NCBI GenBank assembly: GCA_903881665.1
Contig: CAIRUC010000125.1
Coordinates: 27,975-91,974, forward strand
Reading direction: 5' to 3'
DNA length: 64,000 nt
DNA from: an uncultured Bacteroidota bacterium
Lineage (GTDB): Bacteria; Bacteroidota; Bacteroidia; AKYH767-A; OLB10
In this document: piece after piece, positions 60,894 through 64,000 of the stretch
How positions within the stretch are numbered: the stretch's first letter is position 1
How the letters are laid out: every line of letters begins with the position of its first letter
The notes under the pieces: model-generated
What the model was told of the DNA's origin: nothing
Database searches by the model: none
The model's input: the letters and a program-made list of their open reading frames with translations, nothing else
Translations under genes and position numbers: made by a program

Positions 60894-63530
60894 TTATTGT
60901 TTTACTACTCTTTTCACAAAAATTCCGTCCGGGCTTTTCACTTTCAATAAGTACATTCCACTTGGCAATTCCTGCGTATTAAGTATGACCGTTCCGGATT
61001 GTATTTGTTGAGAAAGTATCAACTCTCCTATAAGTGAAACTACATCAATGTTTCCTGAGTGTATTTGCCCAAGATTAATTTTTAGTTCTTTGGAGAATGG
61101 ATTTGGAGAAACTTGAATGTCTTGTTCGTTTAATTCATGAATACTTGTTAACGTTATTGGGTAGCAAGCAGAAGTATCAGCACATGTGCCATAACTAACA
61201 ACAACTTTATAATCTCCTGAGTAAGTCGGGTAGAACACTTGATTTGATGCCCCCGGTATAATTACACCATTAGCACAGTCAATCCATTGATATATTGCAT
61301 TTGGTAAATTACAAAATAATGTATCGGCGCTTTGATTTATCGAGGCTTGAATTGCGTTACAGTCAATAACCGTATTTGCTGTAGTATTTGTAATTACAGG
61401 AGGATTAAAATCAAAGAAAATATTTGCCGTATTGTTAATTTCTGATCCTAAGATCAAGCTATCTTTTGCTCTGATTTTATATTGTACATAGCCATGGCTA
61501 GCCGGCTCATTTGCATTACTGTCGGGAAGATTAATATTAGGGAAATCAAATGTTAAGACACCTCCATTTGTTAATTGAACTGTTGGTTCATGGCTGTATG
61601 AAAGAATTGAAAAAGTAGACCAATCAACTAGTTGACTTAGGGTATCTGTGATGTATATATTTTGAGCGGACGCTGTGCCGGTATTTTGAAACCGTACTAA
61701 ATAGGTTAGCCATCGATCGCTGTTAATTTCCATTATTCCAACCGGAGATACTGACTTATCATTTGGATCAAAACTTCCGACCACTGTAAAGCAATTAGAA
61801 ATTTGATTGTTTAACAAATTACTTTCTACTATTCCAGCATTGAGCGATGCAGAAAAACATATTTGACTGCCAAGTTGAGCGGTGCTGTCTACTTGAATAA
61901 AAAAATTGAAAGATGTATTGTATTGTGTCGCTCCGAAATCGGCGATATTGTAAATTATTGTATCCCCATTTATACTATTGGGAACAATACTTCCCGATGA
62001 AGCGCCTGCAAAATGTGCCGGACCGTTTATTGCTATTTGAACAATTCCTCCAACTCCACTACCACAATTCGCTCCAAATGTAGAAGTGAAATTACCGGCT
62101 GCAGTTTTCACTTCATTCATAAACCCTGGGCGTGGTGGAGAAGAAATGATGCTCCAAACTCCATAATCATCATTATTACAGTTTAATCCGAAGTTTTGAT
62201 TATAAAAAAGAGAGTCTGTTGCAGTAATGGTATCGAGATATGAATTCTGTCCAAGACAACTAAATTGAAAAACAGAGTATGCTGTATCTAACCCTACTTG
62301 ATACTCGCCAAGGCTATCTAACTTAAATGAATACATACCATTGGTGCCGGTATAGGTTTCTTTTAAAAAGATATTGTTTTTAAGTAGTCTAATTCGTTGA
62401 TTCGAAACACCTGTTTCAGAAACATCATATGTGCAATTAATGTTTGAGTCGAAATAAACTTTTCCGCTGATATTCCAATTTATTGAGCAATTGTTTGTGT
62501 TATTTACACTACAAAGCGGAAATGTTGACTCATCGGGTACTGAAGTAAACACCACATTTGCATAATTGGGAATACATGTTATTGATGTGTTATTAAAATA
62601 TAAGAAGTTTACCATTGAAATTACAGGCAAACAGGACAATGCCGGATTATCATTCACCGATAATGAATTTAAAGAATCCGGTATTGAATGAATTGTTGTT
62701 AACTGATTGAATGAAAAATCTACATCAGGAAACGTGTTAGGAAGATCGGGGATTTCCGAAATTTGATTGTGATCGCAAATAATTTGTGAGAGCTTGGCTG
62801 GAAACGATGGAACAGAAGTTAATTGATTGCTATTACAACGTAAGTCTGTTAGAGAGTCCGGAATTGAAGCTAATGAGGTTAATTGGTTATATGAACAATT
62901 TAAAAAAGTTAATTCATTGGGTAAAGCGGGCAGGCTTGTTAACGAATTATTATTGCAACTTAAAACCACCATGTGTTGTGGTAAGGTAGGGAGTAAAGAA
63001 ATATTATTTCCGACACAACTAAAATTAGTTAATGCTGATGGGAGAAAATCAATATTGCTTATTTGATTGTAATCGCAATTAAAAAATTTTATTGAGTCGG
63101 GAAGGGTCGTAATATGTTGAATTAAATTTGCGCTACAGTCTAATTGTTTTAATCCATTAGGGAGAATTGGTAGCGAGTCTATAAAATTATTTCCACACCA
63201 TAAATATTTTAAAGTCGAAGGAAAATTAGGAAGGTGGGATAGGTTATTGTAGTTACAAGAAAAATTTTCAAGATTACTGAAGACTTCTATTCCCGTTAAA
63301 TCTGAAATGTTATGACCTGTAACCCCAAATGCTGTTATGCTTTGTAAAACAGGGCAGCTTGCATCTATTGAGTCACCCGACATACAACTTGGGTAATTCG
63401 TTGTTAAGAACGACCTGAATGCCGTGTCAGGAATAAATACCATTTGAGAATGAACTTTATTCGCGCTCAATATAAATAGTGTTGTCAGTAAAATATTAAT
63501 TGCTCTTTTCATAAAATGATTTTTATTCAC
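60894..63530 (-). CDS. Leucine-rich-repeat protein with DUF11-like region and T9SS sorting domain
   Basis: Repeating L..LPxLPxxLxxLxCxxNxL units, then FDPNDKSVSP...VRFQNTGTASAQNIYITDTL and a C-terminal CTD. Confidence 0.88.
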   Translation of the reverse strand: MNKNHFMKRAINILLTTLFILSANKVHSQMVFIPDTAFRSFLTTNYPSCMSGDSIDASCPVLQSITAFGVTGHNISDLTGIEVFSNLENFSCNYNNLSHLPNFPSTLKYLWCGNNFIDSLPILPNGLKQLDCSANLIQHITTLPDSIKFFNCDYNQISNIDFLPSALTNFSCVGNNISLLPTLPQHMVVLSCNNNSLTSLPALPNELTFLNCSYNQLTSLASIPDSLTDLRCNSNQLTSVPSFPAKLSQIICDHNQISEIPDLPNTFPDVDFSFNQLTTIHSIPDSLNSLSVNDNPALSCLPVISMVNFLYFNNTSITCIPNYANVVFTSVPDESTFPLCSVNNTNNCSINWNISGKVYFDSNINCTYDVSETGVSNQRIRLLKNNIFLKETYTGTNGMYSFKLDSLGEYQVGLDTAYSVFQFSCLGQNSYLDTITATDSLFYNQNFGLNCNNDDYGVWSIISSPPRPGFMNEVKTAAGNFTSTFGANCGSGVGGIVQIAINGPAHFAGASSGSIVPNSINGDTIIYNIADFGATQYNTSFNFFIQVDSTAQLGSQICFSASLNAGIVESNLLNNQISNCFTVVGSFDPNDKSVSPVGIMEINSDRWLTYLVRFQNTGTASAQNIYITDTLSQLVDWSTFSILSYSHEPTVQLTNGGVLTFDFPNINLPDSNANEPASHGYVQYKIRAKDSLILGSEINNTANIFFDFNPPVITNTTANTVIDCNAIQASINQSADTLFCNLPNAIYQWIDCANGVIIPGASNQVFYPTYSGDYKVVVSYGTCADTSACYPITLTSIHELNEQDIQVSPNPFSKELKINLGQIHSGNIDVVSLIGELILSQQIQSGTVILNTQELPSGMYLLKVKSPDGIFVKRVVKQ

Positions 63531-63572: not shown

Positions 63573-63764
63573 AAGCTCTTTCGACTTGCTTTTTTTAGTA
63601 TACTTCTTCAAAACTACTATTTATTATCTAAGATTTGTCATTTTTTAATAAATCCGCCCTTAAAGAGGAAGATCGGATTTGTTTGTGCCTTGTTGTTTCT
63701 TTTTAAAATTCCTACCTTAATTCTCCCAAACACCGGAAAGGAATAAAAGCGATTATGATGCTGA

Positions 63765-64000
63765 GTTGTGATTTGATTTCATCTTGTATCTTTGAATTAT
63801 TGAAAACAACTACAATTCAGTATACCCGTCTTCGTTTTCTGTTGTGATTTGATTTCATCTTGTATCTTTGAATTATTGAAAACAACTTTAGGAATTGTGT
63901 TAACGTTTGTAGTCAAGTTGTGATTTGATTTCATCTTGTATCTTTGAATTATTGAAAACAACGTTAAAATCATTTGATGTTATAAACAATGTGTTGTGAT
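63765..64000 (+). CRISPR. CRISPR array, type II-C-like, truncated by the window end
   Basis: Three identical 46-bp repeats GTTGTGATTTGATTTCATCTTGTATCTTTGAATTATTGAAAACAAC at 63765-63810, 63841-63886 and 63917-63962. A fourth starts at 63993. All three spacers are exactly 30 bp. Confidence 0.97.

Follow-up and report, generated by a model that had tools for sequence, protein, structure and literature searches.

Whether a CRISPR array that stands at the very tip of a contig, with no cas gene in sight, is a relic of a lost system or one half of a system cut in two by the assembly is the question raised by positions 63765-64000 of the 64,000-nt stretch of Bacteroidota DNA analysed here (the window). 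That these positions are a genuine CRISPR array is plain from their anatomy: GTTGTGATTTGATTTCATCTTGTATCTTTGAATTATTGAAAACAAC occurs in three exact copies at a period of 76 bp, and the three identical direct repeats are accompanied by three different spacers, all exactly 30 bp (Table 1). The perfect repeats and 30-bp spacers of the original prediction are thus borne out, with coordinates and spacer sequences in agreement. No copy of the repeat lies in the 64-kb window outside this interval, a dinucleotide-shuffled window contains none even with three mismatches tolerated, and a search for a degenerate repeat ahead of repeat 1 gave nothing above shuffled expectation. Contig C125 (91,974 bp) ends exactly at window position 64000 (contig position 91974), and the array is unreadable further to the right because the contig stops inside it.

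Table 1. Features of the array, its promoter-like element and its flank (window coordinates)
Feature	Position	Strand	Remarks
Cas-distal array flank	63700..63764	+	63706-63732 resembles congener G006
CRISPR repeat 1 (46 bp)	63765..63810	+	intact, exact copy; probable cas-distal array end
Putative Bacteroidota -7 element TATCTTTG	63787..63794 (repeat 1)	+	repeat positions 23-30; matches TAnnTTTG
Spacer 1 (30 bp)	63811..63840	+	
CRISPR repeat 2 (46 bp)	63841..63886	+	exact copy
Spacer 2 (30 bp)	63887..63916	+	
CRISPR repeat 3 (46 bp)	63917..63962	+	exact copy
Spacer 3 (30 bp)	63963..63992	+	
Repeat 4, first 8 bp = GTTGTGAT	63993..64000	+	cut by contig end
TATCTTTG recurrences	63863-63870 (repeat 2), 63939-63946 (repeat 3)	+	

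Because no effector is visible in the organism's own genome, the subtype rests on relatives. Cas9 loci were sampled among class-level relatives and from an even sample of the phylum, the repeat playing no part in their selection; arrays were called mechanically, and the resulting compilation also takes in a few array loci of relatives found by repeat pattern. Repeats at these loci come in a shorter class of 36-37 bp and a longer one of 44-47 bp, almost always 46-47. The longer class is represented by 36 distinct repeats of Bacteroidota loci located through Cas9, apart from a few that come from companion loci in the same genomes. It has spacers of about 30 bp and, in nearly all its members, the framework GTTGTGA-N3-GCTTTCA, and the window repeat belongs to it, matching the Cas9-flanking repeats in length, spacing and framework. 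Long-repeat arrays flank cas9-cas1-cas2 in many Bacteroidota, the same family included. In one member of that family (G022) the cas9-cas1-cas2 locus is complete, its Cas1 is of type II and its repeat measures 47 bp; another (G009) encodes cas9, a type II (NMENI type) Cas1 and Cas2 ahead of an array that runs off its contig (C10). The repeat of a third (G013) differs from the window repeat at a single place in the first 32 bp (GTTGTGATTTGCTTTCATCTTGTATCTTTGAA); it stands at the end of one contig, and a different contig carries a fragment of cas9. The type II-C reading put forward from the window is therefore supported by the repeats that flank Cas9 in relatives. In G013, the 3' part of cas9 is followed (C15 2286-2555, L049) by a frame that resembles a type II Cas1 at its beginning (MIKRILYFGNPAYL); it is 89 aa long and matches no NCBIfam model, and cas1 there looks broken or truncated.

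An array of another kind, belonging to a type VI-B Cas13b or a type I/III system, is barely credible on this evidence. The invisible effector leaves room for it, as does the 5' GTTGT end that VI-B repeats have in common with it, but those repeats are 36 bp long (PMC8092290) and the window repeat is 46 bp, and it is Cas9 that 46-47-bp repeats of the same framework flank, in loci that were themselves chosen by Cas9 and so do not constitute an independent census.

Profile searches of the whole assembly (141 contigs, 3.14 Mb, completeness 99.5%, estimated contamination 3%) detected no Cas9 (TIGR01865), Cas1 (PF01867) or Cas2 (TIGR01573), so that the lack of cas genes noted for the window extends to the rest of the assembly. 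The Cas1 and Cas2 models were positive in control genomes and TIGR01865 was positive in relatives; it was taken in place of RuvC_III, which is uninformative by itself, its control having given no match. No further repeat was found on any contig of the assembly, and the repeat was likewise absent from the GTDB contigs and viral contigs searched. One other match, on contig C31, was set aside as the region 5' of an ISXO2/IS1595-like transposase frame, with promoter-like words common to both and no array; that frame (G000:C31 897-1570, L006) is apparently interrupted near its 3' end and has TTTTTGTATCTTTGATTTCATAAAACAAC just upstream. A 16-bp anti-repeat search of the same genome for a tracrRNA returned only 16-mers with one or two mismatches, near chance level, the best of which (contig C55) was rejected because it sits within a long gene; if the assembly has missed the cas half, the lack of an anti-repeat is expected. 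Either the assembly failed to capture the cas half or the strain does not have one.

The latter would make this an orphan array, in a strain that has lost its cas operon and retains either a relic or an array with no effector of its own. Both the silence of a nearly complete assembly, in which cas9, cas1, cas2 and further repeats are all lacking, and the seven congeners, in which neither Cas9 nor the repeat was found, are in keeping with such a loss. It is nonetheless unlikely. The contig breaks within the array, whose far end has thus not been observed to be empty but is simply missing; all copies are perfect and a fourth repeat is beginning, unlike a decaying relic; completeness estimated from marker genes is uninformative on accessory loci; and contigs break in arrays of this kind in other genomes as well (G009, G013, G025, G030 and G033). 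In G009 a second contig (C19) carries a cas-less half array with the same repeat as C10, which opens with an intact repeat, as in the window, and runs off the contig end. Contigs of relatives that end in II-C-like arrays (G009:C10 and C19, G013:C145, G025:C120, G030:C6, G033:C188) yield arrays that are apparently orphan. What stands in the window is very probably the cas-distal end, with the oldest spacers, of a real type II-C array that was cut by the assembly.

The side on which the cas genes would lie follows from the orientation of the repeat. All long-repeat loci with a called Cas9 frame (24/24) have the repeat pointing to the cas operon. In each of the arrays examined the repeat nearest cas is free of changes, and the one at the distal end is often degenerate, which places acquisition at the cas side. 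By this polarity rule the window would hold the old, cas-distal end, which would account for the absence of cas genes from it, and cas2-cas1-cas9 are predicted to the right of the contig end, on the minus strand. Three loci with 36-bp repeats (GTTGTGGTTTGATTAAAGATTAG...; L119, L126 and L132) have the array at the 3' end of cas9 and the reverse orientation to every long-repeat locus, their repeats pointing away from cas9.

On its left the array faces the 5' end of a leucine-rich repeat (LRR)/T9SS gene on the minus strand (60894-63530, likely ATG at 63512). The array had been placed downstream of this gene, which is wrong: the gene being on the minus strand, the array lies some 235-250 bp upstream of it. 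The intervening flank bears on a further alternative, namely that the array was joined to contig C125 by mistake. Arrays are prone to misassembly, this one stands at the extreme tip of its contig, and the estimated contamination leaves some room for foreign sequence; yet the repeat family is present in the same bacterial family (G009 and G013), and a 27-bp stretch about 30-60 bp before the array (63706-63732) is 96% identical to a sequence at the gltX locus of congener G006, which argues that the junction region is chromosomal up to that point. Such a chimera is accordingly very improbable. The G006 counterpart precedes another secreted-protein gene, a neighbour of gltX, at a position that has neither the LRR gene nor the array, and the locus is thus variable within the genus.

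If the array is indeed the distal half of a type II-C system, the question of how it is transcribed turns on the repeat itself. At 46-47 bp, these Bacteroidota repeats exceed the ordinary 36-bp length by 10-11 bp, and each copy in the window contains, on the crRNA strand, a putative -7 element that agrees with the Bacteroidota consensus TAnnTTTG, as quoted in PMC10309648. Among the 36 distinct long repeats, which are related and hence not independent in this count, the motif occurs in 14 on the crRNA strand, mostly at positions 23-24, and in none on the opposite strand, whereas mononucleotide shuffles average 2.1 and reach 8 at most. Of 36 regions upstream of genes in the window's own genome, 13 contain it in the sense direction, compared with 4 antisense and 3.5 after shuffling. 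A TTG at repeat positions 2-4 would precede the -7 box by 18 bp. Ahead of the genome's genes, however, TTG showed no enrichment at a distance of 17-20 bp from the -7 element; the candidate -33 box was therefore dropped and only the -7 element is claimed. Each repeat thus appears to carry its own promoter. The broader proposition, that 46-47-bp II-C repeats of Bacteroidota hold TAnnTTTG or a variant of it in fixed register (mostly position 23-24) and that transcription of each spacer begins in its own repeat and heads for the leader, is an evenly poised one.

In the working proposed for this locus, transcription would start within each repeat, driven by the -7 box, and run from left to right toward the leader, giving a short crRNA precursor composed of the 3' end of one repeat, one spacer and the 5' end of the next repeat. 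Paired with a tracrRNA, this precursor would direct Cas9 to cleave the phage or plasmid DNA that it matches, while new spacers would enter at the right-hand end, beside cas2 and past the contig end. The presence of Cas9, Cas1, Cas2 and a tracrRNA in this organism, together with transcription and DNA interference, is what we infer from the array and from its counterparts in relatives. The original prediction proposed a comparison of the spacers with phage and plasmid databases; searches of phages and viral contigs yielded no protospacer for any of the three. Spacer 1 has no match in IMG/VR, among the INPHARED phages or in 147 genomes (the organism's own and those of relatives, at up to 3 mismatches and outside its own array), spacers 2 and 3 have no real match among viral contigs and phages, and none of the three has an exact match in IMG/VR; the phage matches, with E values of 0.6-8, are at chance level. 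No PAM is derivable.

Against known systems, the array is closest in build to the Bacteroidota II-C systems with 46-47-bp repeats, and a Phocaeicola massiliensis plasmid bears similar repeats. Loci L036, L042 and L106 are like the window in repeat length, in the GTTGTGATTTG(C/A)TTTCA start, in spacers of about 30 bp and in TATCTTTGA within the second half of the repeat; what distinguishes the window from this group is the lack of visible cas genes and tracrRNA, the contig ending there. The II-C repeat of Neisseria meningitidis is 36 bp. That system has one promoter per repeat (Zhang et al. 2013, as cited in PMC5006608 and PMC10309648), as is inferred here, although the promoter sequence differs. 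The II-C arrays of Flavobacterium columnare and F. psychrophilum, for which promoters inside the repeats have been proposed (PMC8092290, PMC10309648), resemble the window in crRNA direction, from the array interior toward the leader, and in a promoter within each repeat, but in F. columnare the repeat measures 36 bp and the case for a promoter rests on a TTG motif, whereas the 46-bp window repeat has the full -7 TAnnTTTG. The CRISPR1 repeat of Riemerella anatipestifer, at 47 bp, shares the length class of the window, and its authors found no promoter in it (PMC5006608). Repeat-borne promoters are a known but little-documented trait of Bacteroidota II-C arrays, and the -7 TAnnTTTG would go beyond earlier work, which offered a TTG motif only or no promoter.

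In itself the finding is an ordinary further example of a Cas9-type (II-C) Bacteroidota array, one more of its kind and truncated by the assembly. Its implications are for how such loci are read: short-read assemblies break at arrays of this kind and lend them an orphan look, and the polarity rule tells on which side of them the cas genes lie. More broadly, the promoter element that may reside within the 46-47-bp repeats is a testable by-product.
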